Assembly: GCA_033065855.1 (NCBI GenBank)
Contig: JAVXUO010002083.1
Location: 372,001 to 436,000, forward strand
Direction: 5' to 3'
From: Escallonia rubra
Lineage: Eukaryota; Streptophyta; Magnoliopsida; Escalloniales; Escalloniaceae
Length of the DNA: 64,000 nucleotides
The position numbers and the translations under genes are program-made. The notes under the pieces were generated by a model. The model was not told where the DNA came from and ran no database searches. It saw only the letters and a program-made list of their open reading frames with translations. The stretch's first letter is position 1; each line of letters opens with the position of its first letter. Of the stretch, positions 13,601 to 58,245 are shown one piece after another.

Positions 13601-16600
13601 AACTGACGAAGCCACCAAAAATCAGCACCCACATGTACCAGTTAATTCAACCAAACAACAAAAATACCATATGCAGTCCCAGACAAATTGTGATACCATT
13701 TGTGACGAGGAATATAAATTTGTATTTAGAGATGTTTCATTTGAGATATAAAGCTCCATATGAAGAGACAGCTTAACAATGCAAACAAACTTACGGCTGC
13801 CTCCCAACACTTAAATCAGAAAGAGACTTTGCAAGAGCGTGCACGTCATCATGCTTCAAACGGCTGGCAGCTATCTGCTTAAAACGTGGATGACCTCTTA
13901 AGCTGCAGGTGGAATTAGTTACCTAAGCGGTTTATAATTGTAAGGAAAGAAATATTGCAATAATTAAGCAAAGGACAGAAGCAAACTGATTGATAGAAGT
14001 CCACAATTACCTATTCCACAAGTCTCCAGTATACCACATCTGAATAAAGTGCTCTAACCCATGAGAAACAAACGAGCATGCTAAAAAATCGTCCTTAATT
14101 CTACGAATTTTTCTTGCCACATCATCTTTCAATCCGGGGCTACCAGATATTATGACAGCTCCTTCAACCTTCAAACAAAAGTTCATATTACCATAAATAT
14201 TTGACTATACATCATATTCAAGATGTAAGGCACCCAACAGTGTACCTTATCGCTGCATCTCAGGGCCATGTACAATGCGATCCTTGCCCCCATTGAGTAT
14301 CCGATCATTGTAACTTTTCTGGGGGTGATTAAATGAAGCGACTTGCATAATATTTCTGCAACTACCTCAACTGAAAATGTTGGATCTTGAGCTGACTCAT
14401 TACCATTCTGATACTGCATCTTTGATCCCCCATGGCCAGGGAGGTCAATTGCGACACATCTTGCAGATCCAGAGATGGCCTCCATCATTGGAACCCAGTC
14501 TTCACCAGTCCCAAGAAAGCCATGAAGAAACACAAGAACATCATTCTGCATAAACACGATAACTATAAAAGATTGAGCATAACAATAAGCAGCTCAAACC
14601 AAAACCGTTGACGTTAAAATATGCAAGCTGCTTTAGCAAGTTGGGCTGTTGGCTAGGATGGTTTCTTAAGCTGCTTGTGCTGGTATAGAAAAAATAAAGT
14701 TGATCCCATGCAGCAGACACCTCAATGCCAAAATTCAAGCTTACCTTATGAAACCCATGATGCTCATATAATGGTTTCACTGAACTAACACGCATGTGTG
14801 TGTCTCAGATATGAAACACACCCATGCAACATACACACTGTTATCGACAGTGAACACCAGAACTCAATTGGAATTTAGATACGAGTACATCTCCTCAATG
14901 ACTAGCCATTAGAGTTCAAGGGAGCTTGTTCAGCAGATTACGGAGCAAGACATATGTGTATATTTATATATGTATATGTACATCCATATGTAGTGTATGT
15001 ATACTGAGAAATAAAGAACTAAAGCTAACACATACTGAGAATGCGCTACTTACATCAGGATTCTGACCAATCTCTTGCACATTGATAGAAATAGCAAAAT
15101 CTTCCAATTCAACCACTAACTGATAATTAAAAACTTGTGCCCGGATATTGCTGCGAATGATACAGTTATCGTTGAACTCAAAATTTCGCAAGAGCCGACC
15201 AGCGTCAGCAACAGATGCTTCCATAAATCCGCTGTATGGATTACGATGAATACTCAGAGGCTCGGCAGTAACGTCTTCTTTGAACCATCGGTAGGTTCCA
15301 AGACCATGGGCTATTGATAACGCTGGTTCCTTATTCATCACTTTACAAACATCAGCACTTTGCAGCCCAAGATAACAAGAGAACTGGATATAAGCCGATA
15401 GACCAAGGCCACTTTCAAATGCAGCACTTACAACAGCCATCTTTCCGTGCTGCTGAGCCCATCTTGCAATTAATGCTGCATTTTCAAAGCCCCCTACTAC
15501 ACTTGGTTTAATAACCTGTAATAGAAAACATAGCAACCCAAATTAGGATGACCTATTTGATTCTTCCTCTTTATGATCTTAATAGGTATGAACTTTCAGA
15601 GGATGAGACACCAAGGCCATGTAGTGAAATGGTGTTCTTGTTTATGGAGCATTCAGGGATGAGCCACCTTGGTTATTCTATAACAGTGTGACAAAGCATT
15701 AAATTTTAAGGCACTCTTAACAGGAAAAATAATAATCCTCTGATTATGTAGTCTTTGATATAAAATGACAACAAACATTTGTCGCACTTGAAGTCATCTG
15801 GCTAGGCTAAGATCTACCTAAAAGAAAACCTCCCAGGTGGGGCTTATACGGTGGACCTCTGGATTGGTGACGGCAAGGATAGGCCCATGGTGGTACGGTA
15901 GTATAAGAGGCAAGTTACTAACTGACTACACGAAGTGATACTTGTCCCAGAAAATTTAAAAACAAAACACCGTAAGAAAAGCTAGAATAGAAATGCACTT
16001 CTTACTTACAACAGCAACAACCCCTGCATGAGTAAATTTCGCAAGCATTTCAAGAAAGTTTTCCTGAAAATTGTCGATCGTTTCATCAATTGCTACAGGT
16101 AAGCCAGTTTCTTCACAGAACTTAATTATATCATCCCCATCACTAACAGGTTCCTGAAATCAAAAGGAAGATGCAAGAATTATTTATTGACCTGAAAAAA
16201 AGATCACATAAGATAGACCAGAAGAGAGCTGATCTGATAATGTATGAATACCACAACTTCTGATAAATGAGTATTAGGACATGAAGGCATTCGTTAAATA
16301 GGTAAATAACAGCTGCGTCCAATCAATATACCTAGAATTGATCAGTAATAGGAAGTTGAGAATGCAAGTATTAGGAGAGGAGATCAACCATTTCTTAGAA
16401 AGCACACCTCAATATACTGCAGCCCACAATCTTTCACATGATTGCCAAACCGGATCGCTTCTTTATAGGCCCATTTCCGATTAGCATCAGCACGCAACTC
16501 AATCTGATGTCCTATTTTCTTTCTTATTTCTTTTATAACTGCAGCATCCTCAGTTGGATCTGCCCGACGTCCCACCTGTAATTGGAGGATACAATATGCC

Positions 16601-25600: not shown

Positions 25601-28600
25601 GAAAAATATACCAAAACGAGAACAATTTCTTTTCTAAACAAATCTATAAATACTAACTTGTTTATTGCAGCCCACAGAAAATCCAATAGCGGTGCTAAGC
25701 AGACCATCAATACCACTAGCTCCTCTATTCCCAGCCACCTGTATCCAGTGACATGATAATCCCAAGGTCAACATTGCAGGAATATCGTGAGTACACCGTG
25801 CCCAGTTACTTCCATACATATTGGCATCACGTATTGGCATGCTGTTTCCGATAAATATAGAAGATCCACAGTTAAGAGCTTCCGGAATTGCATGTGCAAC
25901 ATAAGGTTCAGTCAAGGAGTTATCCAAACCGATTAGACATGAAATCTCCCAGGCAACCTACAAAATGGGTGGAATGAACTTACAAAACCATGTAAAGAGA
26001 GGATGGAAGACCTTGAAAAACCAAATACACTTAGAAATAGGATTCACTCTGTCTAGGTCTACAAGAAATAGGAATCAGAACAAGAACCCACAATGAGGTC
26101 CTTGGAATCATGTCTTCTTGTACAACAAGCTTTTAGTTACCAGTTGGGTGACGCCCTTGCAAAGCCATCAAAAGACGCCTTAGAGAGCTTCTTTTTCAAT
26201 TTATTGGTGTTAATTCTTGAAACCCTTTAAATCAATGCTTCTCAATTTCACATGCCAATACTTTTTCTTTTGCAATTTCTAATTTTCTTTTATTTTCCTC
26301 TCTCCACTGTTTCGGTCCAATGTCTGTTTGCCAGTTTCAGTTTAGCACAAAAATTAACACCTTATTTAAGACTCAGAATATTCGTAGGTGACATAAAAAC
26401 AAACACACTATCATCTTACACACATAAAATTTGGTCAATTTGGCATTAGAAAATTTGATCCTATAAGCTATGGGCCTATGGCACATGAGAATACCAACTT
26501 CTCTGACAATCTACATCAAATTGAGAAGAACAAAGCTGTGAAAAACAGGGCATACCACATCTTAAGAGGTAATGCAGCTCCTACACTTCGGGAAAATCTA
26601 TCTCAGCCACAATTGAAGGACTTATTTCTCCCATTCACAAAGATACAACAAGACAGTTAAACAATAGTGGCCGTATTGCTAAAGGCACACCATGTTTGCT
26701 AATCATTCAACAAATACGTTGATGTATACCTCTATACTCTTGATTCCGAAAAGCTGTAGTAACTGTGTTTATTGCACCCCTGCTTTGTTAATACTTTCCC
26801 GAAGCTCTTATGCTTTCTAATACTTTTTAGTTTTAAGTTCTCTTAGCGACAGATAGGAGTTATGACAATGAATTGCAGTTTTGAACAGAAAGCTGGAAAT
26901 TAGATCATCAGAGCTAGTTACAGGCATGTACAAAGTTCAGCAGGTCTGGCTTTTTCTAGAGTTAGCCAACCGAACGTCGTCGAAACTTCACCAAATAAGA
27001 TGTGAAAAGCAAGGTAGAATTCAAGAAGGTAAAATGGAACGATTAACTAAGTAAGGGTGTAAAAGAATCAAGGCTGAAGAATAGAACCATCATGTCTAAT
27101 GCCCGTAGAAAACCAATCCAATTTCTGCTCATGCGCGGTTTACAAGCTTTAAGCAAACAACCAGTGAATTCAGTAGCAGAACTCTGGATCCTATGCGTTA
27201 CAATGTGTGAAGGATCGTGACGACTTGGATGCTTCTCAACCATTACATACGAGCGTGGAAAGCAATCTTCTAGCATCTCAGAAATGCGCTTGCTTGTAAT
27301 CCGGCTACCAATCTGGTATAATGCAAAACTGGAAGTTAATTGACAAGATTTAATATACAATCACACAGCATACAGGGAAGTATCATCGAGCAAACCATTG
27401 CCACATTATCATTACCTAATGCAAGATCCATATGCTTTACTTGTCTTTTGTGGACCGTGTGATCTTTTCTAGATATTGTAAAAGTACATCTACAGACAGG
27501 TAATATGAAAAGGCTAACAAGACAAGAACTATTACCAAACCTGTGTAACTTCTGTCCTTTTATAAGGGCTGTCGCCTTTTGTCTTTCTACGTAATCGACA
27601 ATCTAAAGCAAAGGAAAGGATACTCGCTAACATTAAATCACTGCGAAAGGGACTCCAGGACTCTTCCTGTTTCTCGTCATCTAAAGGGCAGCCGCGCTAT
27701 GGGGAGGGCTAAATGTACGCAGCCTTAACTTAACTTTGAGGAGAGGCTATTCCGCATTTCAAACCCGTGATCTCCGTGAGTTAGCCACCTTAAAAGAAAA
27801 AATGTCATTCTAATTACGGAGAGAAATGTAAGTTCAAGGCCAATGTTGAGCCTTGATGCAATAATAAGGTTGCCAAGGCTCAACCTCGGCCTCAAAGTTT
27901 CATTCCTCTTCATAACTAGAGTGATGTTTGATAAATAGGTGGCTAACTCACCTAGTGCGTTGATTCTTAAACTTATCTTCAAATTAGGGATTGGTATCTT
28001 CCCTGCATGATTCCCCGCAGTATATATTAGAGAATTTTCTCTCGTTTTTCATCATATAAAAATTCATTTTTTTGCAGTCTACGGAGGGTGAAACAAAAGA
28101 GAAGTTCCACGCAATTGTTGTCCTTCCCTTTCTGCCATACAAGCTCCAAACACAGCCTTAAAGTTTGTCTAAAGTACAGTAAATGCACTTAAATTTAATA
28201 GCAAAGGCAGAATTAGTTTATACCTGAACAACCACATCAGGCAGCGCCCATTCCCTGACGACACTGGAGAGTAATAAATGATCAAGATGATCAACAAATA
28301 ACAAATTCTCTGCATTTGTAGAAAAGGAAGTCATATACTTTCTCAATCGCAGGCCTGATAAGATGTCAGCTACAATTGGCCATTGAAGGTGTTTAGCAAG
28401 AAGAAGAGCTGCCCATATGTCATCCTCTGTTCGAATTGCACCAATTAGTAAAAGTCCTCGCTTTGCCCCTTGAATCACTCTTATAACCTCAGTCATATGC
28501 CCATGTGTATAACAACATGCAAGAGAATGTTGCACTTGGACATAAGACGTAAATGGTGCAGCACTTGACATCCAGAAATCTAATCCTTCTAGACAATTAC

Positions 28601-31600
28601 GCATCCACTTCCTTGGACTGTTTTCTAATGGTTCCCTAAAAGGACAGTTGATGTGAGCCGGCCCAGAAGGTGAAGAGGTTGCCCAATGTACAGCGGAGTC
28701 AAGGGTGGTCAGTACCATCCTTGCAGGTATATTATCTGTGGGTGCAGGAAGACCGAAGAAGTACCTCACAAATGGGCCAAAATGGTTGACCTGGTGTACA
28801 AAACAAAGACATAGTTCGTGAGAACAATTAAAACATTCAGTAGCCTCCTGCACTAGGCTGCCATCATATCAGGTCAAGATAGATTGGCAGATGATGAATT
28901 AGATGATTTTGTACAGCTACCACACAATTCAGGAAATATAGAACTCAATAAATACAAGTGGCAACTCCAAGGAAAGACTAGAGAAAATATATTGTCATAA
29001 AAACCTAATGAGTCAAGCCACTTGAGCTATGAGCAAGGTGAGCCCATCTAAATCTAATCCTACATCAGTTCAACATAATCCATGTTATATGTTTCTTTAC
29101 AACAAAATCAGGGTAAGTATGAAATATCAAACCCAGTAGGCCAGCACCCAAGAATATAAAACCTTAAAATTTCTGAAGGGGTAATGTCAACATCAGACAC
29201 CCCATAACCAATTTGGTCAATGCACCAAACAAGATGGCAACAACTGAACACTCCACATTCAAAATTGGAGTATGTTATCTCAAAATCATCATAGAAGCAT
29301 CAAATTTGGAAGTCTGCTAGGCAGGGGCCCTAGTTGCTGCTTAATCCCAGCTGGAGGTTGACCTAAACTTCCAACTTCAGCTTCCATAATACTGTATGAA
29401 AATAGCACTAGTGCTAGATCGCTACTGTATTCAGATGGCAGGATATAAATTTCAAACATGTGTCACAGCAGAAAGTAACAACACGTCCCATGGATCAAAT
29501 CGTAGTTCCTTCTTTCAGAACCCACAAATCAGCATGCCCTCTAGAATCCAAAGAGAAGCTCCCTTCCCAGCTTCATATGCTCAGTTCATCAATACCTTTT
29601 GGATAAGTAAAATATAGACTAAGAGAATGGCATATTTGTTTTATTTTATTATTTTGATAAAAAATTGTATCCTCCCAAGACCCCCGGAACATGGGAAGCC
29701 TCGTGCACCAGGCCACACAAATTAGTAGCAGGAGCTAGCATAAAGCACTAACCTGGCCAATCTATAAAACCTGCAACTTGAAACACATGCATCATTTCCC
29801 ACAACAGAAAACCTTAACAGAGGCACCAAAACCCTCGCCTCTGCACATACCACAGCCATTGCAGGCACCCATCTCTGGCCAGTCTCCTACACACCGTGCT
29901 TCTAAAACAATTATGGAAACCCAGCTCCATCCAACCAAAACAGCCCCATGCTTTGCCAAAAGAATGGTACCGACCCTTATGTATGTCTGATACTTCACCG
30001 CCTCGAAGCCATGTGCATCCAACTTCAATTGGCAAAGCTCTAGCCAACCAAGCACCATCAGAGGGAAACACCCACTGCTAACTGCTCCTGGGAACTTTGT
30101 TGAACTTGAACCCATGGCAGAATAGGAGGAATGGAGTCCATTGGTAAAAGCTACCCAGGGGGGACCGCCACCCCCAACAGGCACATTCAATGGCTAGGAA
30201 ACAAAAAAAAAAGAATGTGAAAAAATTGAATCCCCAAAATTCCAACGGGAGAAGCTTGTACTTGTATGCATTATCTGATGTCAGCAAAGGCAGGACAAAA
30301 GCTTTTGCAAAACAAATTTGAAATGTTGATAAGAAACATGGCTCATAAGTGGACATTCTTGCCTGCTATGTAATAATATCACATTGCTCTGACAGCTGTA
30401 AATGGCCCCGGGTCCTTTTCAGTTAAAAAAGTCAAATGCACCATTTATACATGTAGAAAGAACAAATATGATGTTGAGTAACTCAACCAGGTCCAACCAG
30501 AAGTAAGAGCTAACCTTATCAAATATAATATGTCCATCAAAACTACCTGTCTTCTAATATAGGTTGTAAGTAGGGGTTAAAAGTTTAACATACCTGATTA
30601 ATGGCCTGGTTTGCTCCAGCATCTTGCAGCTCTGGAGGACGATCAGCAGTTAGTAATAAAAGTGGTACAAAATCTTGACTAGCCTCTACAACCTGTACAA
30701 CACCACTTACTATTAGCGAGGGATCCAAAATATACCTAATCAAAGCACAATATAAGCAAAACAACAATATTTAAGAGAATGAAGTGCAAGGAAGAAAGAA
30801 ATGTGAAAGCAGGCAGAGGTGCTTACTCCCCCAACAGAAGGGACAAAAATTGCATTATGATTGACAACGAGAAAAGCAAATTCAGTGAGACACTAAGAGA
30901 TTTCCAACATGGTTACAATCAACTAAAACTTAACTAAACATAGGAAACTGGAATCCCATTTGCCACTATTACTAAAAGAATGAGTTAAGTTTCAATATCT
31001 AGTGATACTCACAGCAGGAAGAAGGTTTGAGACTGCAGTGCCAGATGATGTTATGACCACTGCTGGTTTATGAGAACCTCTGGCATAACCTATAGCGTGA
31101 AATGCAAGCGAGCGCTCATCAAAGCACGCGATACAAGTTGTAAGGGGATGACTAGAAGCAGCAATTGCAAGGGGAGACGATCGTGATCCTGGAGCTACAC
31201 AAAAATACTAGATGAAGAATGAATCAGAAAAAGTATACCCCCACATACGTAGCAAAGGAGACCATCAATTAATCTCACCGTCAGACCAAGTCGAGAGCAT
31301 TCTTCGATTATGAGTGACGCCCACAAGGTATTGATGTTAGCATAATCTTGCACTGATAAGTAAGTTATTTCACCAACATGATCCAATTCATACTGAAACA
31401 GAGACAAACTACCTGAATAATTTATACACAAGTTTGCTCCACTGAGGCACTTCAAATTAAACAACTGAACAACAAAAAAAATTCAGACATATTCTCATTC
31501 ATATTTTACGATTGGAAGTGGCATACCATGTTTTTGGAAATAGCTACTGTGGGTGAAAGCCTGATAGAGAACTGGCAGGAACATGAAGCATCTTTCTGTA

Positions 31601-47461: not shown

Positions 47462-47863
47462 ATGCACGTAACCACCATTCTGAACACCACTCAAAACTCA
47501 CCCAGCACTCAACCAAAAAGAAAGAACCTTTTTGACCAACCACTACAAACAAAAAGACTCAAACTAGACAAAACAAACCAAACCTCAGCTTACCAAAACC
47601 AAACTAAAGACCAAGCATCTCCCCCAACTATTTCGGTCCTCATCCAACCAACCACCTTTTCTCCCAAAACACAAATTACACGAGGTGCAAAGCTGAAAAA
47701 TCTGAAGCATTTGGCAAGAAGTGTTAAGCACCCTTCTGAACTTAGCTCCCAGCTCTCTATCCCATTAACCACAATCTCTTCCACACCCCCCAATCTCCTC
47801 TCTCAACGGATCAAATGCAACACAGAGGTGACAAGCCTTGGCTTGATCACCCACCCGCCATGA
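47462..47863 (+). pseudogene. C-terminal remnant of LINE ORF1
   Basis: A 133-residue frame rich in Ser, Thr, Pro, Asn, Gln and Lys with no folded domain, ending 49 bases into ORF2. In plant L1 elements this position holds the disordered tail of ORF1 (DUF4283/zinc knuckle protein); the folded part is lost to 5' truncation. Assignment is by position and composition only. Confidence 0.5.
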
Positions 47864-50800
47864 TCATCCTTGCTTGGAACATCCAAGGGCTTGGGTGCAC
47901 CGAGAGTGTCAGGGCCCTCAAAAAAGATGTCAGGAACCTCAAACCTGACATTATTTTTCTTGCAGAAACCCTCTCCTCTTCTTCTAAACTCTCTCATCTT
48001 CTTGACTCTCTCGGCTTCCTCAACAAATTTTTTGTTCCTCCAACCGGAAAGAAACATGCTGGTGGTCTCTGTCTAGCTTGGAAAATGGGAGTTGACATCG
48101 AGATCACTCTCCAAAACAACAATATAATCAATGGCCTGATTTTCTCTGATCCTCCTAATCAACCGTGGATGATGTCGATGATTTATGGGCCTCCTCACTG
48201 GGCAAACAAAAGAAGTTTTTGGGAAGATTTAAACTCTGTTGCAAAGGCTTTCTCTGGTCCTTGGCTTTGTATGGGAGATTTTAATGCAGTTGTGGATCAA
48301 TCTGAAAAACTTGGAGGAAATCCAGTTGCCTCTTCGTCCTATGGAGGACTGAGAGGACTGATCAGCTCAACCCATCTCATTGATCTAGGTTTCTCTGGGA
48401 ATCCGTACACTTGGTCTAATAACCGTCCTTTATCTGCAAATATCAAAGAATGGTTAGACAAAGCCTATCCAAATTCTGATTGGAGACTAATGTTCCAGGA
48501 TGCCTCCATCACTCACTTGCCGGGTAAATCCTCTGACCATCTCCCAATTGTTCTTCACTCTCATGGATCTCAGCGTCTAGGCCCCAGGCCTTTTAAATTT
48601 GAGTCTGTGTGGACTCGAGATCCTTCATCCCATTTGGTTGTAAAATTGGCATGGAGAAAACAGATTTTCGGTCCTCCAGAATTCGTGCTATGCCGAAAAA
48701 CGGATAACACCTGTACAGCTCTCAAGAAATGGAACTTCACATGCTTTGGTCATATTCAATCTCAAATCAAAAGACTATCTGATCTTTTGGACTCTGTACA
48801 ACAACAAGAACCATCTGTGAGGAACATAGAGCTCCAAGGTAATCTTCAAAAACAGATTGACAAACAATGCTGTAGGGAAGAATGGCTATGGCACCAGAAG
48901 AGCAGATTACAATGGATCAAGGAAGGGGACCGAAATACAAAGTATTTTCACCTCAGCACTATCATCAGGAGTAAACAAAACAACATTGATTTCTTAAAAG
49001 ATAGTAGCGGAACATGGACCTCAAACCGAGAGGAGATTGGTACGTGCTTCACTGATCATTTCCAAGACCTGTACAAATCCTCTAATCCCTCCATCCCTGA
49101 AAATCTGGACGGCCTCATCCCTCAGGTTGTTTCAGATGAAGATACACATGCCCTTCTGCAAATTCCATCCATAGAAGAGATTACCTCCATCTTGATGAAG
49201 TTTAGCAACTTAAAAGCTCCTGGGCCTAATGGTATGCCATCTCTGTTCTACAAAACTTATTGGGAAACTGTCAAGCCAGAGATGTGCATAGCCATCCAAT
49301 CCTTTTTTCGTATGAATTCTCCTCTCCATGAAATAAACCATACCAACATTGCCTTAATCCCTAAAATTCCATCTCCCACCAAAGCAGTGCACTTCAGACC
49401 GATAAGTCTTTGTAATGTCTCCTACAAAGTGATTGCCAAAATCTTGGCAAATAAGTTAAAGCCTCTTCTTGCAAAAATCATCTCTCCCATGCAGTCAGCT
49501 TTTGTCCCGGGAAGATTGATCAATGACAATAGTATCATCGTTCAAGAAGTTTGGCACTCTATGAGGAAGAAAAAGGGCGCAGGGCTTATGGCGATTAAAA
49601 TTGATATGGAGAAGGCATACGATAAAATAGAGTGGCTATTTATCATCAGAATTCTTCAAAATCTAGGTTTCCCACAAGTTTGGATCAACTGGGTGACCAA
49701 TTGCATCTCAACAACTAGCTTCTCCACCATCCTGAATGGAATTCCCTTTGGTTTTTTCAAACCTCAAAGAGGGCTTCGCCAAGGAGACCCCCTGTCTCCG
49801 TATCTGTTCATCATTGCGTCTGAAATCCTAACAAGACTGTTCCTCCGAGCGGAAAGCAGTGGAGCTCTTCATGGAATTAAACCCAGCAGGGGCAGTCCCA
49901 CAATCTCTCACCTCCTCTACGCTGATGATCTAATTATATTTTGCAGGGCTAATAACAAGGAGGTGATAGCTGTTCAAAATTGCCTGGACACCTACAACTC
50001 TTGGTCGGGCCAGTGCACAAACCAACAGAAGTCAAAAAATTACTTCAGCAAAAATCTCAGACACAATCGGTGCAGCGAAATCTGTCGAATCCTTCAACTG
50101 AAAAAAGCACCAAAGGAAGCAAAATATCTGGGATTGCCCATCTTTACTAATCAGCCCAAGAACAGACTCTTCGAAGAGATAGTCATGAGAGTTGAGAAAA
50201 GACTTGCTAGCTGGAAGAGCAAGGTATTATCCCAAGCGGGCAGAGCTACACTCATAAAATCAACGGCCATGGCGATACCGACGTATGTGATGTCCACTTT
50301 CATCCTTCCGAAGAGCATCACCGAAAAATTAGACAGTCGTATGCGCCAATTTTGGTGGGGCTTCAATGAGGATGGTAAATCTCACTACCACCCCAAAGCG
50401 TGGGACTCCATTTGCGTACCAAAATCCGTGGGAGGAATGGACTTTAAGAAAATGCATGATTTCAACATGGCGTTGATTACAAAACTGGGCTGGACTATCT
50501 TGAAACACCCGACCTGCTTATGGGTGCAAATTATGAGCTCTAAATACCTTAGAGGTATCTCTTTCCTTGAGTATAACATCAAAAAGGCCTCTTTCTGGCT
50601 TTGGAAATGTATCTGTAAATCCCGTAGCATTCTCGAGAAAGGTATAGGAGTTTTGGTAGGAGATGGGAAAGCTACGAATGTGTGGAAGGATAGATGGATT
50701 CCAACTGAAGATGGTTTTATACCAGCTAAAGCACGGTTCGATAACCATGTTGTTAACTTGGTGGCAGACCTTTTCCTCCAAGACTCTCAAATTTGGGATT

Positions 50801-51450
50801 TTCCAAAAATCCTCAGCATGTTTGATGCTGTGACGGCAGAGGCTATTCGGAAAATTAGAATTCCACCAAATCAAACCCAAGACATTTTAGCTTGGACCCC
50901 AAACAAGAAAGGTAATTTCACAACCAAGTCTGCATATCTCACAGCTTACAAGCACAAGTTTAGACCAAACCCAAACTTTCCATCTGATTTTTGGAAGAAT
51001 TTGTGGAGAGCCAAAATTCGAGAAAGACACAAAGTCATGATCTGGCGAATAGCTTGGAATATCCTCCCGACGAGAGCGAATTTAGCTAAACTGATCCCAG
51101 ACATTGATGACCGATGCCCGCTATGCGAGTCATGTACAGAGACGTCTACACATCTCTTTCTTGAATGCAGCAAGACCAGACTGATTTGGGCAGCATCTTT
51201 GTTTGACTGTAGACCCCTTTTTGGTGCAAATTCACAGATAGAATGGCTGCAAAGCATCCTAAACCCACCTGGAAACTCTGAAGCTAAGGATAAATACACC
51301 ACCTATGCAGCGTTCTTTTTGAACTTGGTCTGGTTTGGCAGGAACCAACTGGTACACCAAGGCAGGCTTTTCAATCACTGCAAGATGGCTGAGTCCATCA
51401 ACTCTTCTACCAAAGCTTTCCTGGAGCTCTCAGAGACCAATAATAAATAA
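47815..51450 (+). CDS. LINE ORF2: endonuclease-reverse transcriptase
   Basis: An uninterrupted frame of 1211 codons; Met16 (MIILAWNIQGLG, 47860) is the more likely start by family comparison. The APE-type endonuclease occupies about residues 17-250: Asn22 in AWN, LAET, GDFNAV with Asp155, and SDH with Asp241-His242. Reverse transcriptase is about 480-760: FRPISLCNVSYK, the RGLRQGDPLSPYLF box and YADD at 702-705. GRATLIKS and WW segments follow, then a zf-RVT cysteine/histidine region near 1080-1130 (CPLCESC...HLFLEC). Its product would nick target DNA and copy the LINE RNA in the nucleus. The frame stops at TAA 51448-51450, and the RNase H domain continues in the same frame one codon later. 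Confidence 0.95.
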   Translation: MQHRGDKPWLDHPPAMIILAWNIQGLGCTESVRALKKDVRNLKPDIIFLAETLSSSSKLSHLLDSLGFLNKFFVPPTGKKHAGGLCLAWKMGVDIEITLQNNNIINGLIFSDPPNQPWMMSMIYGPPHWANKRSFWEDLNSVAKAFSGPWLCMGDFNAVVDQSEKLGGNPVASSSYGGLRGLISSTHLIDLGFSGNPYTWSNNRPLSANIKEWLDKAYPNSDWRLMFQDASITHLPGKSSDHLPIVLHSHGSQRLGPRPFKFESVWTRDPSSHLVVKLAWRKQIFGPPEFVLCRKTDNTCTALKKWNFTCFGHIQSQIKRLSDLLDSVQQQEPSVRNIELQGNLQKQIDKQCCREEWLWHQKSRLQWIKEGDRNTKYFHLSTIIRSKQNNIDFLKDSSGTWTSNREEIGTCFTDHFQDLYKSSNPSIPENLDGLIPQVVSDEDTHALLQIPSIEEITSILMKFSNLKAPGPNGMPSLFYKTYWETVKPEMCIAIQSFFRMNSPLHEINHTNIALIPKIPSPTKAVHFRPISLCNVSYKVIAKILANKLKPLLAKIISPMQSAFVPGRLINDNSIIVQEVWHSMRKKKGAGLMAIKIDMEKAYDKIEWLFIIRILQNLGFPQVWINWVTNCISTTSFSTILNGIPFGFFKPQRGLRQGDPLSPYLFIIASEILTRLFLRAESSGALHGIKPSRGSPTISHLLYADDLIIFCRANNKEVIAVQNCLDTYNSWSGQCTNQQKSKNYFSKNLRHNRCSEICRILQLKKAPKEAKYLGLPIFTNQPKNRLFEEIVMRVEKRLASWKSKVLSQAGRATLIKSTAMAIPTYVMSTFILPKSITEKLDSRMRQFWWGFNEDGKSHYHPKAWDSICVPKSVGGMDFKKMHDFNMALITKLGWTILKHPTCLWVQIMSSKYLRGISFLEYNIKKASFWLWKCICKSRSILEKGIGVLVGDGKATNVWKDRWIPTEDGFIPAKARFDNHVVNLVADLFLQDSQIWDFPKILSMFDAVTAEAIRKIRIPPNQTQDILAWTPNKKGNFTTKSAYLTAYKHKFRPNPNFPSDFWKNLWRAKIRERHKVMIWRIAWNILPTRANLAKLIPDIDDRCPLCESCTETSTHLFLECSKTRLIWAASLFDCRPLFGANSQIEWLQSILNPPGNSEAKDKYTTYAAFFLNLVWFGRNQLVHQGRLFNHCKMAESINSSTKAFLELSETNNK

Positions 51451-51453
51451 GCA

Positions 51454-51948
51454 ATGCCCTGTAACTTGGTCCCCCCTTTCCCTGGTTGGTCTAAACTAAA
51501 TTTTGATGCGGCTCTAAGAGGTCCCAGAGCATGTGCGGCTATGGTGTGCAGAAACTCAGAAGGAGCCTTCAAATTTGGGTGCACGGAGATGACAGACATT
51601 ATTCATCCTGAAGAAGCGGAAGCCTATGCGGCTCTCCCAGCAATTTCAACGGCACTTTCTCATGGGAAGCAGTTTGTTCTGATGGCAGGAGACGCAACTG
51701 AGATTATCAAACTTCTGCGAGATACATCTTTGTCCCCAGGCTGGAGGATAAGATCTTTTATTTTGCAGGCTAGACAGCTCTTAACCAATTTCTTGTGTTG
51801 GGAAGTAGAATTCTCACCTAGACTAGCCAACTGTGTGGCTCATAATCTTGCGGCCGATGCTTACTTTTGTAATTACTCTGGTTTTGTTCCATCATCTTCC
51901 ACACTTTTGTTTAATTTGGAAGAAGATCGGAACATTGTTGCTACTTGA
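51454..51948 (+). pseudogene. LINE RNase H domain, separated from ORF2 by an in-frame stop
   Basis: In the same frame as ORF2, after TAA and one codon, runs PPFPGWSKLNFDAA, then EEAEAYAALPA, LMAGDATEII and SPRLANCVAHNLAADA. These carry the acidic residues and the Asn/His segment of the plant LINE RNase H (RVT_3) domain. The natural product is one fused ORF2, so the TAA is most simply a nonsense mutation. Internal initiation at the ATG 51454 would give a domain-only 164-residue protein but is unlikely. Confidence 0.85.
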
Positions 51949-52065
51949 TTCTCCTTTTAATATAAGTTCGTCGGTTTACCAAAAAAAAATCTCTTATTCC
52001 TATTTGGTTTTGAATTGCAATTTTCTATTGCAGAGAACCTCCTCTAGAGTGCTCTATTATTCAAT

Positions 52066-52280
52066 GGGTTAATTATAAAACTGTCCCCTATGGTTTACAT
52101 GTTTTTACACTTTGCCCCTCGTGTTTACAACTTTTGTAATAATGTCCCTCAAGGTTTACAAAACCATTGCAAACAGCTCCAAAAATGGACGGCCGTTCAA
52201 ATTCAGCCGTTAAGACCCCATGTGCACAACACACCCGATTTTCTCATGGGTATATCGGTCATTTGCCTACCCCATCTTCC
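52066..52280 (+). repeat. MULE left terminal inverted repeat
   Basis: Pairs with 57575-57789. Contains the GGGTTAATTA terminus and, at its inner end, GCCTACCCCATCTTCC. Probable promoter of the transposase gene, whose ATG is at 52419. Confidence 0.93.
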
Positions 52281-52418
52281 ATCGGTTATCACGAAATCAA
52301 ATAACCCAACCGTTGCCAGAGCTAAGGAGAGAGAAACAGAGAACGGTCGTGCGATCACTACCTGCAAATCGAAATTCTTGGACGAAAAAGATCCCGTGTG
52401 GGAGATTGATGAGCGAAA

Positions 52419-55400
52419 ATGGATTGGGTACCCCGAGAAAGCGACGTCGCACAGCCCATTTACGGTCAGTGCTACTGAAACCCATATTTTGTCCCTGTTT
52501 GATTAAACTAGGGTTTGAGTTTTAAGTATATAATTAACTAATGTCTCTCACATGTGCAAATAATTTTATAATCCCTGTTCTAATTAAATAATTTTGTTTG
52601 TTGAAGTGTTGTTTGTTCGTGCGTGTTGTTTATTGATAGAATAATGTTTTTGAAGTTAAAGCTTTTATTAGTTTTTGTTTTATGCAGTAGTTAATTTGGG
52701 ATTGTGCATGTTTGGTTTGTTTGTGTGTTTTTAGATCCTCATTCTTCTTTTTTAACCATAAAACTGCACTATGGGGGGCAATTTAAGAACATGCCACACA
52801 AGGTTTACACCCCTTGCAAAATAGACTACTTTGATTACTGTGACCTTGACATGTTAAGTTTGATTAAGATTGATAACATGGCAGAGAGTGTAGGAGCTGT
52901 AGGATTTATGAACTATTACTATAAGAAGCCTGGGTTAAGCCTTGACAATGGACTAGTGCAGATGATTGTAGACTCAGACATTTTGGCATTGAAAGACTGC
53001 ATAAATTCACAGGGCCAAGTAGAAATATATTTGGAAAGTTTGTCAAAGGATGAGATGATGGAATCAATTTCCACTCAGTTAGGGCTTAAAGAAACTGTGG
53101 GCTCTAGTGTGGTTATTGAAGAGCTTGATGATGTAGGCAATGTAGGAGGAAATGTGCCTACAGGGACTACTGTGCCTGTTTGGAGCTTAGGAAAACAGGG
53201 GACAACAAGTACACAGGGGGTGAGAGGTGGTTCAAGGTTTAGGCTAAGTTTAGAAGGTCCAAGCAATGTTGGTGATGATGGGCTTGGTACACAAGCATCA
53301 GTAAATGTGGGCACTGGGGTGGAGGAAAACATAAACCAGAGCAGTAGGGCAATAATGGGTACTCAGGGGGAGGAAAACATAAATCAGAGCAGTAGGGAAA
53401 GAATAGGCACTGAGGGCAAGAGAATCATACACCAAAGGACTAGGGCAGCAAGGGGCAGTGCTAATGAGGGGCCAAGGGGCAGTGCTACTAAGGGACCAAG
53501 GGGTAGTGCTACTGGTGCTAATGAGGGGCCAAGTGGTGGTGCTTCTGAGGGGCCAAGGGGTAGTGTTACTGGTGCTAATGAGGGGCCAAGTGGTGGTGCT
53601 TCTGAGGGGCCAAGGGGTAGTGCTAATGAGGGGCCAAGTGTTAATGAGGGGCTAAGTGGTGGTGCTTCTGAGGGGCCAAGGGGTAGTGCTACTGGTGCTA
53701 ATGAGGGGCTAGGTGGTGGTGCTTCTGAGGGGCCAAGGGGTAGTGATTCTGACACTGATTCTGATGATGAATCATACTGCTCAGATTTGTTTGATAGTGA
53801 CTATGATGCCAATGAGGATGATAGATTGTATGAGAAAAATGTTGACATGAATGTAGTAGAACATGGAGTGGGTAGTAGAAGCAAGGGTAAGGGACAAATG
53901 GTGCCAAATTTTGAAGAGAGAATATGACTCTGATGAGTGGCAGGAACATCCACCATCAGATTCTGAGGAAGAAATTGACAATGTAAGAAACAAGAAACTA
54001 ACTGGGGAATTTAACCCTAAATCATACATGAGAAAACCTGAGTTCAAGGTTGGTATGGTGTTTAAAGACAACAAGGTTTTCAAGGAAGCTGTTAGGCAAC
54101 ATTCTATTTTGGAAGGAAAACCAGTAGTATTCCCCAAGAATGAATCAGGGAGAGTTACGGCTAGGTGTGCTTCAGAAGGGTGTCAATGGCAGGTGTTTGT
54201 GTCTAGGATGCAAGGAGACAATGAGGTTGATTTGGTTGTGAAGACTGCAGTAACCCAGCACACATGTACCAGGGTGCACAAGAATAAACATGTGACTAGT
54301 ACTTGACTAGCTGCTAGATACAGTAAAGATTTCCGATTAAATCCTAATATGAAGGTTGGTACTTTGAGAAATACATTGATGAGTGATCACCAACTAGGTG
54401 TGCCACTTTGGACAGTTTATAGAAGCAAGAGGAAGGCAGCAATGATGGTTGAGGGCAATATAATGGAACAGTTTGGGCAGTTGAACTCTTACATTTATGA
54501 ACTTAAGAGAAGTAATCCTGGCACCACTGTGGATCTACAATATGAACCAGGGGGCATAGGATATGGTGAGTATAGGTTTCAAAGGATTTATATATGCCTT
54601 GGTGCATTGAAGGAATGGTTCAAAGCTGGGTGTAGGAGATTGATAGGGCTAGATGGGTGCTTTTTGAAAGGTCCCACTGGTGGTCAGCTTTTGACTGCAG
54701 TGGGCATTGATCCTAACAACCAGATGTATCCAGTGGCATATGCTATTGTAGAGGCTGAAAACAGAGACTCTTGGGGTTGGTTTGTACAGTTGTTGGGTGA
54801 TGACTTAGAGATAGAAGACAGTTTGAGTTGGGCATTTTTGTCTAACAAACAAAAAGGGTTGGTTGGGAGCATAGAGTCATTGTATCCTCATACTGAGCAC
54901 GGGTTTTGTGTCATGCACTTGCATGCAAACTTCAAGGCAACAGGGTTTACTGGGATTGCTTTGAGAGATGTTCTGTTTGCTGCAGCCAAGGTAACCAATG
55001 TGGTGAGATGGGAGCACAGAATGCAAGAGATGGCTGACATAGACAAGGAGGCAGTGGCCTGACTTGATGATAAGCTACCTACAGAGTGGTCTAGGTCACA
55101 TTTTAGTACAAATGTTAAATGTGATGTTCTTTTGAACAATTATTGTGAGAGCTTCAATTCAATGATAAAGGAAGCAAGGGATAGATTGGTCATTACTTGT
55201 CTTGAAACAATAAGAAATACCTTGATGGCAAGGATGAGATTTTCTAGGGAACAAGCTGAGGAATGGAATGGTGAGATTTGTCCTACAATACAGAGGATAA
55301 CTGAAAGATTGAAGGTGTATGCTGGGGAAGGGATACCATCACACTCAGGGGAGTTGAGGTTTCAGGTAGCATGTCCATGGGGGGAGCAGTTCACTGTGGA

Positions 55401-56420
55401 TCTCAAGCAGTACACATGTTCATGTAGGAGGTGGGACTTGAATGGGATTCCATGTCCCCATGCCATTGCATGCATTTGGCACAAGAACCTGGTAATAGAG
55501 AATTTCATCCATGAGTGCTACAGTATTGACACATACAAGAAGGCTTATGCACCAATCATTAACCCAATGAATGGTCCAAGTATGTGGCCTAAAAGTAATT
55601 TACCCTTCATTCTACCCCCCACTTATAGAAGGCCAAGTGGCAGACCTAAGAAACTGAGGAGAAGAGGCAAATATGAAGCTGAGGATAACACATGCACTGG
55701 CAAGATGCCAAGGAAAGGAACAACAACTAGATGCAGCATATGCCATCAGCTTGGGCACAACAGGATGAAATGTCAGAGCAGTAAACAAAATACTTCCTCA
55801 GTAAGTACATGTTGATTTTATTTAGTTGGCCTAGTTGTTATTTATGTTTGAGATTAATGTATTATAACCTCTCTAATAAGGAAACATGCCAACTGAGCAA
55901 GGCAGAGCCCCATAACAGGGAGATATGGCAACAAGGGGGGGTAGAACCCCAAGAAGGCAAAAGTTACTAGTATGTAAATAACAGAGTTATAGATTTGAAT
56001 TGTATTTATAAATAGGTATTTTTACTGAAAATGTCTTTTTTGCAGCCAATAAGGCAACAAACTGCATCTCAACCAAGCCAAGGTGCTCCACAAAGCTCAG
56101 TTGTTACAAAGCAGATACCAGCAGGGTTTATGCCAACTCCATAGGCAACATCAGCCGAAAGACCATCATGGCCTATACCAAGCATGGTAGAGCCACCACC
56201 AACATCAGCTGTTACAGGTGGCCAAAGCCAAGGTGGCCAGAACATAGGGAAAGAGAAAATTGCCAAGGGAAGTCTAAGCCAAGGGAAGGAGAAGTTAAAC
56301 GACAACCCTGGCCCAAATCCAACAGGAGGACAAATAACCACAAGATCAAGAGCAGTTGCAAGGAGTCAAGGTGAAGGACAAGCAGCTGCTGGTCCAAAGG
56401 GCAAGGGAAAGCAAAAGTGA
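52419..56420 (+). pseudogene. MULE transposase (MURA-like), disabled
   Basis: Three exons in matching phase: 52419-52464 (MDWVPRES...), 52735-55800, 56046-56420. Order of domains: an N-terminal PB1-like stretch (HYGGQFKNMPHKVY), a Gly/Ser-rich minisatellite linker, a MuDR-type DNA-binding domain (FKEAVRQHSI, TARCASEGCQWQVFVS, HTCTR), the MULE transposase domain (LIGLDGCFLKG, QLLTAVGIDPNNQ), a SWIM zinc finger (YTCSCRRWDLNGIPCPH), a CCHC knuckle (CSICHQLGHNRMKC) and a basic/Gly-rich tail. It is broken by a frameshift near 53920, TGA at 54304 and 55060 (both where relatives have Trp), and TAG at 56142. In the second catalytic motif an Asn replaces the expected Asp (SNKQKGL). It could not make active transposase. 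Confidence 0.9.
53450..53750 (+). repeat. Coding minisatellite in the transposase linker
   Basis: Repeats of GPRGSA, ANEGP and SGGASE blocks. At DNA level units such as GAGGGGCCAAGTGGTGGTGC recur with periods of about 27 to 57 bases, all multiples of three. It forms a disordered linker; length is probably variable between copies. Confidence 0.85.
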
Positions 56421-57078
56421 TATGGTGTCAGTGTAGCTTAATTTTGTGTAGGGAACTCACTGTTAGTTTTTGTTCAAAGTATAGGAAGGTTGGATGGTTT
56501 TTTGAGAGCAGTAGATAAATTTGTAGGTGACTGGTTTTTGGAAGCCTAGTATATACACTAGAAGATAGTGCCAGAGTATATGTTTTTGGATGTTGGCTGT
56601 AATTAGAATTGGGAAGGATGATATTGTTTATGTGTTGGATGTAATTTAATTGGAAGATTGATGACAAAACCACAGCTTGTGAGTCTGTATGTTCAGATTA
56701 ATGTAACTTGATTACTTGTCTTGAGATTTGGTTGTGAATCTTACATGAAAGGGATATTTTAGCACTTTTGTCCTGAAAAAGTAAACCACAGGGAACACTT
56801 TTGTCTATTATTGTAAATGACAGGGAACAGAATTGCAATACACATGGGACATTTTTGCTCGGTATGTGAAAAGTACAGGGGACACTTTTGCCATTAACAT
56901 TAAAAGTACAGGGAACAGAAATGCAAAAACATTAAATTGAAATTATCTTCATTACATTGCTTCAGTACACAGCTTGGAAACAGGGGATGTTGATTTTTTT
57001 AGGGCAATCCCTAATTCAGTACATTCCACAGCTCAAAACATTACAAAAAGCCCTAATTCAGTACAACCCTAGCAATTT
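56421..57078. other. Region between the two convergent MULE genes
   Basis: AT-rich 3' flank of both genes with short repeated phrases (AGTACAGGGAACA, CAGGGGACACTTTTG, near 56770-56920) that echo the text of the TIR (CCCTATGGTTTACA type). No gene. Confidence 0.5.
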
Positions 57079-57447
57079 CTACAAGCTGTTGCCCACATCT
57101 TCACCTTCAATGTTGCTCAATTCCTCTGTCCCGTCGCCAAAATCAGACAATAATGCAATCACAGTCAGTAGAAGCAACACCCAACTAATAATTGCAACAG
57201 TCTTCCAAAATCTCTCATTTGACCTGTTAATCGTAATTGGAGGGTCACGCCAAGCAAAAAACCCACACCTACCAGCCTGTGAGAACAAGGAGACTGTTCA
57301 TTCAGCTCACGAAATTGAAGAAGAAAATGGGTTAAACACAAAACTCACCTGGTTGCTGCAAGTCCAAAATCTTCGGCCGGGATTTAGATCTGTCCACGAA
57401 GTCTTAGCCACGGCTCTCTGACCACACTGACAGTATATATGAGCCAT
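57079..57447 (-). CDS. GRF-type zinc-finger membrane protein encoded by the MULE
   Basis: Exon 1 (57447-57349, 33 codons) ends CAG|GTGAG; exon 2 (57276-57079) starts after CACAG and runs to a stop: 98 residues in all, no disruption. The zinc finger is C-x-C-G (Cys6, Cys8), AVAKTSWTDLNPGRRFWTC (Cys30) and Cys37 in RCGFFAWRDPPI, the GRF layout found in topoisomerase 3 and APE2 C-termini, where it binds single-stranded DNA. A hydrophobic segment TVAIISWVLLLLTVIALL near residues 63-80 predicts a C-terminal membrane anchor, followed by an acidic tail. It lies inside the MULE TIRs, convergent with the transposase, in the position mudrB has in MuDR. Its role in transposition is unknown. Small GRF proteins with a C-terminal membrane segment are known in plants as uncharacterised proteins. 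Confidence 0.85.
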
Positions 57448-57574
57448 GAGATGGGTTCTTCGAAATCTCTCTCTCCTCCACTGAAGTCTCTCTCTCCTTT
57501 CTTGAAATCCCTGAAGAAATATTGAGGCATAAACTGATTTTGGAGGGAAATAGGAGTGACAGTCACTTTTGGAG

Positions 57575-57789
57575 GGAAGATGGGGTAGGCAAATGACCGG
57601 TATATCCATGAGAAAACCGGGTGTGCTGTGCACGTGGGGTCTTAACGGCTGAATTTGAACGGCCATCCGTTTTTGAAGCTGTTTGCAATGGTTTTGTAAA
57701 CCTTGAGGGACATTATTGCAAAAGTTGTAAACACGAGACACAAAGTGCAAAAACATGTAGACCACAGGGGACAGTTTTGTAATTAACCA
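57575..57789 (-). repeat. MULE right terminal inverted repeat
   Basis: Inverted copy of 52066-52280. Probable promoter of the GRF gene, whose ATG is at 57447, 128 bases inside the repeat. Confidence 0.93.
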
Positions 57790-58245
57790 TTATTCAATCC
57801 TTATTAGCGTGTTTGTGAGTTTTTTCTAGGTGAAGAAAAAAAAAAGTGGTTCATCCTCCCTTTTCTTAACGGTGAGTTTTTTTTAAGAGAGAAAAGAAAA
57901 GAAAATGGAGAAAAGTTTGGACTTCTTTCTATTCAAATCTTTCCTCTCAAAATTGGGAAGAAATAGAAAGAAATGACACACTAATTAGTAATAGGGTTAA
58001 ATACACTTTAGTATCCCAAAAGTACCCCGAAATCTCACCTGAGGGTCCAAATGTTCAATTTTAAAAAAAATGAATATGTATATTCAATTACGTAATAAGT
58101 AAGGACTTCCGTCCAAATTCCTAACGTTCTAGCAAAACTGTCAGGGAAAATTTGGTCGAGCCAACTTTTTTTTCAAACCCTCGTTTAATCCCAAATTACA
58201 AATCACAGGTTTTACACAATTTTCTTCAGGTTAATGGACATGTAA

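Follow-up and report, generated by a model that had tools for sequence, protein, structure and literature searches.

The stretch of DNA analyzed here (the window; 64,000 nucleotides of the Escallonia rubra genome) contains a 5.7-kb MULE (52066-57789) with two genes that face each other. The second of these, on the minus strand (57079-57447; two exons, 98 codons), encodes a GRF zinc finger followed by a C-terminal hydrophobic segment (Table 1). The finger is recognized by Pfam PF06839 with E=2.3e-11 (44 bits versus a curated cut-off of 25.9), its four cysteines are complete (C6, C8, C30, and C37), and 21 residues separate the hydrophobic segment (residues 59-77) from the C-terminus; the Pfam search of the protein returned no domain besides GRF. 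Its PDB match is the GRF finger of NEIL3 (E=1.3e-7), a member of the same zinc finger family; NEIL3 carries its fingers together with a DNA glycosylase, whereas the window protein combines one finger with a membrane-type segment. Within the window the gene is present as a single copy. The original prediction described this gene and its coordinates correctly; the distance of 128 bases that it gave between the gene's start and the right TIR is 124 when measured from the inner edge of the arm.

Table 1. Features of the MULE and of its GRF gene, in window positions
Feature	Position	Strand	Basis or remark
Left TSD, 9 bp, TTATTCAAT	52057..52065	.	Window flanks and sister copies
Left TIR	52066..52283	.	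Arm 217 nt, 92% complementary
Broken MULE transposase, N-terminal part with repetitive tract	52791..53924	+	Pfam: no match at E<=1
Transposase MuDR DNA-binding domain (DBD_Tnp_Mut), PF03108	53860..54303	+	Pfam E=1.2e-14
Transposase MULE catalytic domain, PF10551	54307..55059	+	Pfam E=9.8e-15
Transposase SWIM zinc finger, PF04434, and C-terminal zinc knuckle	55063..55812	+	SWIM E=1.7e-9; knuckle by eye
Five TIR-type units (ACAGGGRACANNWTTG) between the convergent genes	56788..56923	+	Match count and shuffles
GRF gene exon 2	57079..57276	-	Encodes the finger's fourth cysteine, the hydrophobic C-terminal segment, and an acidic tail up to the stop codon
Predicted transmembrane segment, residues 59-77	57145..57201	-	Kyte-Doolittle 2.56 over 19 residues
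GRF gene intron	57277..57348	-	72 nt, GTGAGT...CTCACAG, GT-AG, phase 0
GRF gene exon 1	57349..57447	-	Start codon and first three cysteines; Pfam E=3.4e-7 for exon 1 alone
Right TIR	57572..57789	.	GRF start codon lies 124 bp from its inner edge
Right TSD, 9 bp, TTATTCAAT	57790..57798	.	Window flanks and sister copies

As predicted, the GRF gene lies inside the TIRs of the element and opposite the transposase, which is on the plus strand. The inverted arms (52067-52283 and 57572-57788) are 217 nt long and 92% complementary, and both ends of the element are flanked by ATTATTCAAT, which, judged against the GGG...CCC ends of its family, reads as the 9-bp TSD TTATTCAAT plus one changed terminal base. 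Most differences between the arms are transitions (15 of 17), in mixed contexts (8 CHH, 4 CHG, and 3 CG) that make deamination possible and not CG-specific. The transposase combines a MULE catalytic domain, a MuDR DNA-binding domain, and a SWIM finger, which identifies the element as a MULE, and the presence of a transposase sets it apart from the Pack-MULEs. A frame change and in-frame stops interrupt the transposase, whose N-terminal part gave a weak tblastn match (E=5e-5) to the transposase of another lineage described below (lineage E). The original prediction had pointed to the clean frame of the GRF gene beside four breaks in the transposase, which might be taken as a sign of selection. 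Four breaks in ∼3.4 kb predict only 0.35 per 297 nt, however, so that a gene of this length would escape with a probability of 0.70; the argument is statistically empty, and we rejected it.

Between the two genes lies a tract of TIR-type units, of which we counted nine matches in the window (2.33 expected), five of them at 56788-56923. The similarity of this tract to the right TIR was reached in 1 of 500 shuffles, and in the opposite orientation the tract shows no such similarity. The five units are oriented like the right TIR, and at this tract other copies of the family are about 140 to 190 bases longer than the window copy. An element of lineage E also has a TIR-like stretch between its genes (∼2767-2817 of the joined loci L056/L079), inverted relative to the TIR on the GRF side. 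Such intergenic units may offer the transposase additional sites to bind, or may be what is left of an older end. Elsewhere in the window, a LINE (47746-51945) with endonuclease, reverse transcriptase, and RNase H domains has an open stretch of 1234 codons, then one stop, and ends just left of the MULE insertion; frames at 14183-14593, 14964-15542, and 28218-28868 (minus strand) resemble, by eye, the MenH, MenC, and MenD parts of plant PHYLLO.

The same gene recurs throughout the 566-Mb genome from which the window was taken. Counting the window, at least 40 matches share 92 to 100% identity over full or near-full length (the best 40 of 94 candidates), and we refer to this family as lineage A. 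Twenty of the other 39 copies were taken with their surroundings (4.1 to 7.8 kb each) and the remaining 19 as the gene and its TIR only. In all 20 copies with surroundings, transposase sequence (partial in L025, L026, and L027) accompanies the GRF gene and the right TIR, with the two genes convergent each time, and 16 of these copies are complete from end to end. Every complete copy has a perfect 9-bp TSD, all 16 TSDs are different, and the ends are GGG...CCC in 14 copies and GGA...CCC in 2. Two pairs, L010/L025 and L011/L027, each made up of a complete and an incomplete copy, share their right flank (96 to 97% over 700 bases) and are probably one insertion each, so the 20 copies represent 18 insertions. 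These pairs lie on contigs with adjacent numbers (C3041/C3040 and C847/C848); they are probably alleles or duplicated contig ends, and copy counts in this assembly may therefore be inflated. The comparison for duplicate insertions covered the family-A copies with surroundings, and the other lists given below may count insertions twice. Across the 40 aligned copies, the intron sequence is always present (acceptor AG lost in 5), and start, splice sites, and reading frame are all kept in 19 copies, window included, a share that is biased upward because these copies are the ones most similar to an intact query. Judged from the window alone, with one copy of the gene beside a broken transposase, the gene might have been a host gene captured once by a MULE copy that is now dead, the alternative that accompanied the original prediction. 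At least 40 matches in the genome, 20 of 20 examined copies inside the same element, and 16 complete copies with 16 different TSDs refute that alternative and leave it a negligible probability.

GRF genes are found beside other MULE transposases as well. A Pfam search of the genome for GRF (150 of 345 candidates scored) yielded 30 loci, of which 4 (L030-L032 and L034) are host-type by eye and the rest belong to repeated families of small frames; in the DNA around the loci of the repeated families, the transposases point toward the GRF gene. GRF genes adjoin MULE transposases in lineages A, B, C, D, D′, E, and F, which we delimited by transposase identity bands drawn by eye. Lineage B has DDE and SWIM pieces beside the GRF gene, and lineage C a C-terminal transposase piece in L038 (no transposase match in L040). 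The transposases of D and E are nearly complete, that of E being a single open frame of 932 codons with Pfam domains, and those of A, B, D, and E are 36 to 47% identical to one another in 247 common columns. By eye, the host-type loci L030 and L032 have a zinc knuckle and then GRF, and L031 resembles the end of an APE2-like nuclease; such host-type genes could serve as a root for the MULE GRF types. Scans of viral and prokaryote contigs for the GRF protein, the transposase, and the TIR found no relative; one weak match (L001) lies on a contig with long frames that look phage-like by eye.

Taken from the side of the transposases, the association is close to constant in several lineages. Among the transposases listed, a convergent GRF gene accompanies 47 of 50 of D type (88 to 100% identity), 33 of 35 of D′ (70 to 78%), 35 of 37 of E type (73 to 100%), 20 of 23 of B type (88 to 100%), and 32 of 36 of F type (55 to 63% to E; partners found with exon 2 of the F gene); in D and D′ the starts of the two genes are 1.4 to 2.3 kb apart. 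In the group at 43 to 47% identity in the D search, 13 of 30 listed transposases have a GRF gene. The exon 2 query also found convergent partners for all 10 partial F-like transposases and for 18 of the 56 more distant ones listed, 9 others of which are family-A copies with their own GRF gene; for the remaining 29, none was found in the lists obtained with the Pfam, family-A, or exon 2 GRF queries. The original prediction had named recurrent convergent co-occurrence as support for an element-encoded gene, and these lineages, together with the 20 family-A copies, supply it. Lineage B′ (65 to 74% identical to B) is the exception, with no GRF match within 6 kb of its 18 listed transposases, which may mean absence or a split or diverged gene. 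Two other gaps of this kind were only apparent. A lack of the gene in D′ (0 of 35 with the Pfam list) was rejected when a closer GRF protein query found the partners, and F, which also looked empty (0 of 36 with the Pfam and E-type GRF lists) before exon 2 of its split gene was used as a query, was likewise rejected as a lineage without it. In the one F copy analyzed, the GRF/TM gene is split by an 80-nt intron between the same two cysteines as the window gene; two GT-AG solutions keep the frame, and splicing at the usual donor gives phase 0, like the window's intron. The spliced product matches Pfam GRF at E=5.6e-7.

From the side of the GRF gene, for at least 112 of the 150 scored matches a MULE transposase from the lists lies no more than 6 kb away, and every one of these pairs is convergent; this count took in 44 of 150 matches from the E transposase search and 69 of 150 from the D search. 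The other 38 have no listed transposase within 6 kb, although at least 6 of them are family-A copies with a transposase. With one complete list of 150 transposases, 31 of the 150 GRF matches were co-located, against 0.48 expected by chance. Summed over disjoint groups, 228 transposase places with a GRF gene were counted, some insertions perhaps twice. Each protein or family search scored at most 150 candidates (from 1308, 1176, and 818 in three transposase searches; 150 each from 342, 295, and 317 in further GRF searches), so all these counts are lower bounds drawn from lists that favor the best matches. Of 150 scored transposase matches each, 85 entered the D/D′ count, 73 the E count, and 102 the F exon 2 count, and the E co-location used 59 of 150 E-GRF matches, those left out being chiefly D type. 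Outside lineage A, the search for TIRs covered D and E. TIRs were seen in E; in D, the 6.7 kb examined contained no inverted repeat at E<=1e-5, and the ends may lie outside it or be short. Several D elements (e.g., C1160:52660-54936) have both frames open, ∼880 codons for the transposase and 177 for the GRF protein, and they are 99 to 100% identical to the query in the searched stretches, so that this family looks recently active.

Selection on the GRF gene is detectable between two sister lineages. One copy per lineage was compared, and D and D′ share 94 of 140 GRF residues (46 differ) and 170 of 220 residues of a transposase piece (50 differ). The GRF dN/dS is 0.38, 0.49, or 0.62 at a kappa of 1, 2, or 4, versus 0.18 to 0.28 for the transposase; bootstrapping of the GRF value at kappa 2 gives a range of 0.30 to 0.85, and 0.6% of replicates reach or exceed 1; the GRF gene is thus constrained between D and D′, less so than the transposase. 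E1 versus E2 gives 0.54 to 0.80 with a bootstrap range of 0.32 to 1.52, indistinguishable from 1. Three closer pairs give 0.35 (L036/L045), 0.55 (L033/L035), and 0.56 (L039/L042), and two have no synonymous change at all (L038/L040, 0 synonymous and 11 nonsynonymous; L056/L059, 0 and 4), all five from few changes. In GRF comparisons between lineages, synonymous sites are near saturation. Within lineage A, where a dN/dS below 1 between element copies had been proposed as support for the gene, the ratio is 1.56 on internal branches (21 nonsynonymous changes, 5 synonymous, no stop) and 1.01 on terminal branches (125, 46, and 12 stops) among 34 copies, six of the 40 having been excluded for frame indels (L025, L067, L071, L072, L075, and L078). 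The expectation therefore holds for D versus D′ and fails for the window's own family. The transposase of the same family, which must once have been selected, gives the same result (internal 1.69 with 3 stops, terminal 1.07 with 27 stops; 17 copies, namely, 16 and the window after exclusion of L016, L025, L026, and L027 for coverage below 85%). The within-family ratio is accordingly without power, and we rejected it as evidence for or against a function of the GRF gene. Neutral spectra were taken from non-coding columns for the GRF gene and from the coding columns themselves for the transposase control.

The GRF genes fall into two types whose distribution does not track the kinship of the transposases. 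Type I (A, B, and F) is marked by the motifs GRRF and C-[GE]-[FY]-F-x-W-x-D-P-P, type II (C, D, D′, and E) by [KR]-L-[FY]-[FY], C-[NK]-[MF]-[FW]-x-W-C, and a loop that is shorter than in type I; support for the split is 100/99, with a warning from the tree program that long branches may join falsely. The E and F transposases are 55 to 63% identical, as against 44 to 46% between E and A or B, and since these close transposases accompany different GRF types, the second gene has probably passed from one MULE lineage to another, or been acquired anew, at least once.

Base composition bears on the same history. The observed/expected ratio of CpG is 0.03 in the window transposase, compared with 0.56 in the whole window and 0.42 in the neighboring LINE, while elsewhere in the element it is ordinary, at 0.52 in the GRF gene, 0.69 in the TIRs, and 0.97 in the left leader. 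Over 4.5 kb of this element (52623-57131) there are 6 CpG. CWG is not depleted in it, and the depletion of the MULE body therefore looks CG-specific. In D and E the depletion extends to both genes (transposase, 0.02 and 0.01; GRF gene, 0.08 in each; ∼1 outside), which ties transposase and GRF gene to one history; the GRF genes of B (0.39, transposase 0.00), C (0.17), and D′ (0.22) have intermediate values. As counts, the E transposase has 1 CpG versus 112 expected, that of D 2 versus 106, and the D′ piece 0 versus 31. In A and B, the higher CpG content of the GRF gene than of the transposase allows either a later arrival or replacement of the gene or a promoter-proximal zone that escaped.

These observations bear on whether small host GRF/TM proteins have been picked up often by MULEs as functionless passengers. 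MULEs do take up host genes (PMC6446971; PMC9168764), 38 of the 150 GRF matches lie away from listed transposases with some of them host-type by eye, the CpG content of GRF gene and transposase differs in A and B, and the GRF types cut across transposase kinship, all of which would fit such repeated capture. Such capture sits poorly, however, with a GRF gene beside nearly every scored transposase of D, D′, E, and F, with the same slot and convergent orientation in each pair found, with a matching intron in A and F, with constraint between D and D′, and with CpG depletion common to both genes in D and E. For D, D′, E, and F this explanation is already unlikely, and as an account of the GRF genes as a whole we consider it very improbable. 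Recurrence across the family-A copies, convergent GRF genes in other lineages, and the dN/dS between D and D′ together argue that the elements of a large group of plant MULEs encode the GRF/TM gene as their resident second gene, one of the possibilities raised in the original prediction, and we hold this with high confidence.

A second gene convergent with the transposase is an established feature of MULEs. In maize MuDR, mudrB (product MURB) also lies opposite the transposase, a likeness of layout and not of compared sequence; the original prediction regarded the GRF product as a different protein. The slot that the original prediction assigned to the GRF gene, that of mudrB at the transposase-distal TIR, was confirmed in the window's family; the other lineages share the convergent orientation, and of these E alone provided TIRs by which to place the gene. 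The Abermu elements of barley and other grasses have GGG...CCC ends, TA-rich 9-bp TSDs, and, in type II elements, an antisense gene (ORFR) between the transposase and the 3′ TIR (PMC9168764). The window's family has ends, TSD, and layout of this kind, the window copy with its one changed terminal base. ORFR evolves fast, with Ka and Ks above those of the transposase and Ka/Ks below 1; ORFRs of distant plants are dissimilar, and an element without ORFR shows signs of recent movement (PMC9168764). Antisense second genes of several plant MULE groups have been tabulated as PMD, FAR1, DUF, and others (PMC6446971, Table 1). MURB and ORFR are known by position, and their molecular function is called unclear or unknown (PMC9168764; PMC6446971). 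As to the product, we met no named domain for ORFR, and the term GRF is absent from the main text of that study (PMC9168764), as it is from Table 1 and the main text of the MULE survey (PMC6446971). In titles and the opening parts of abstracts of the papers listed from the open-licence literature, we found no link between a GRF finger and a MULE. Convergent or antisense second genes such as mudrB, ORFR, and antisense PMD are thus already known, and the GRF/TM kind is, provisionally, new.

Plant annotations contain small proteins with an N-terminal GRF finger and a C-terminal hydrophobic segment, ∼100 to 150 amino acids long, under the name uncharacterized protein At4g04775-like, and the window protein resembles them as far as this general description goes. 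The two papers found to contain the name mention it once each; the contexts are a list of genes and a candidate TAS locus, and MULEs do not figure in those passages.

A hydrophobic C-terminal segment recurs in the MULE-borne proteins. Kyte-Doolittle maxima are 2.56 in A, 1.75 in B, 2.64 in C, 2.37 in D, and 1.84 in E, followed by 21, 15, 3, 2, and 3 residues, respectively; C-terminal hydrophobic segments are visible by eye in D′ and F, and the lineages other than the window's have a longer linker. Its location at or near the C-terminus is reminiscent of tail-anchored membrane proteins, whose N-terminus stays in the cytosol or nucleoplasm when they insert in the endoplasmic reticulum or the nuclear envelope, and GRF fingers of repair proteins bind single-stranded DNA. 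In the reading that we favor, each element consists of TIR, transposase, convergent GRF/TM gene, and TIR, and the GRF/TM protein would be expressed from the transposase-distal TIR. By analogy with tail-anchored proteins and repair fingers, the protein would sit in the membrane of the endoplasmic reticulum or in the nuclear envelope, its finger turned toward the cytosol or nucleoplasm, where the finger may bind a nucleoprotein intermediate or DNA that is single-stranded or gapped. It could thereby aid the completion of excised ends or of a gapped target. Long MULE TIRs are described as carriers of promoters (PMC6446971), and MURB is reportedly required for insertion in maize (PMC9168764; PMC6446971). 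A specific helper role of this kind in transposition is a tentative proposal, to which we give somewhat less than even weight when it is taken by itself. The resident second gene encoding a membrane-tethered, single-strand-binding helper is nonetheless the explanation that we favor overall, with moderate confidence.

The main rival to a membrane-tethered helper would have the GRF/TM protein defend the family that encodes it against RNA-directed silencing or DNA methylation, in the manner of VANC, the anti-silencing factor of VANDAL elements. The faster evolution of the second gene relative to the transposase between D and D′ is what such a role would produce, the two GRF types with their apparent swapping between lineages would suit an arms race, and element bodies that are nearly free of CpG, with CWG undepleted in the window's, suggest that CG methylation has mattered to these elements. 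A membrane anchor is unexpected in a chromatin factor, though, and where the function of a GRF finger is known, it acts on single-stranded DNA as part of a repair protein, a class to which the match with NEIL3 relates the window protein by sequence. We regard anti-silencing as unlikely, if worth serious consideration. It is also conceivable that the protein acts on RNA or on the host, by tethering transcripts at the endoplasmic reticulum or by altering a membrane or repair process of the host. The retention of C-terminal hydrophobicity without the sequence of the segment would be compatible with this, and RNA, like DNA, could be a ligand of such zinc ribbons; the closest solved relatives, however, are DNA repair proteins and we found no direct support for action on RNA or host, which makes it decidedly improbable.

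Returning to the resident, membrane-tethered helper, its broadest form would have the GRF finger with a C-terminal anchor already present in the ancestor of a large plant MULE clade, as the second gene of nearly all its members, and would make it an unrecognized class of transposition helper that has been exchanged as a module between lineages and is the source of most "uncharacterized GRF-type" plant genes; we judge this possible, at just short of even probability. A recurring domain and membrane-type segment in the second-gene slot of MULEs provide a concrete hypothesis of function that can be tested, and the material for such tests includes elements in which both frames are open. Of the small GRF genes annotated in plants, many may be transposon genes and not host genes.
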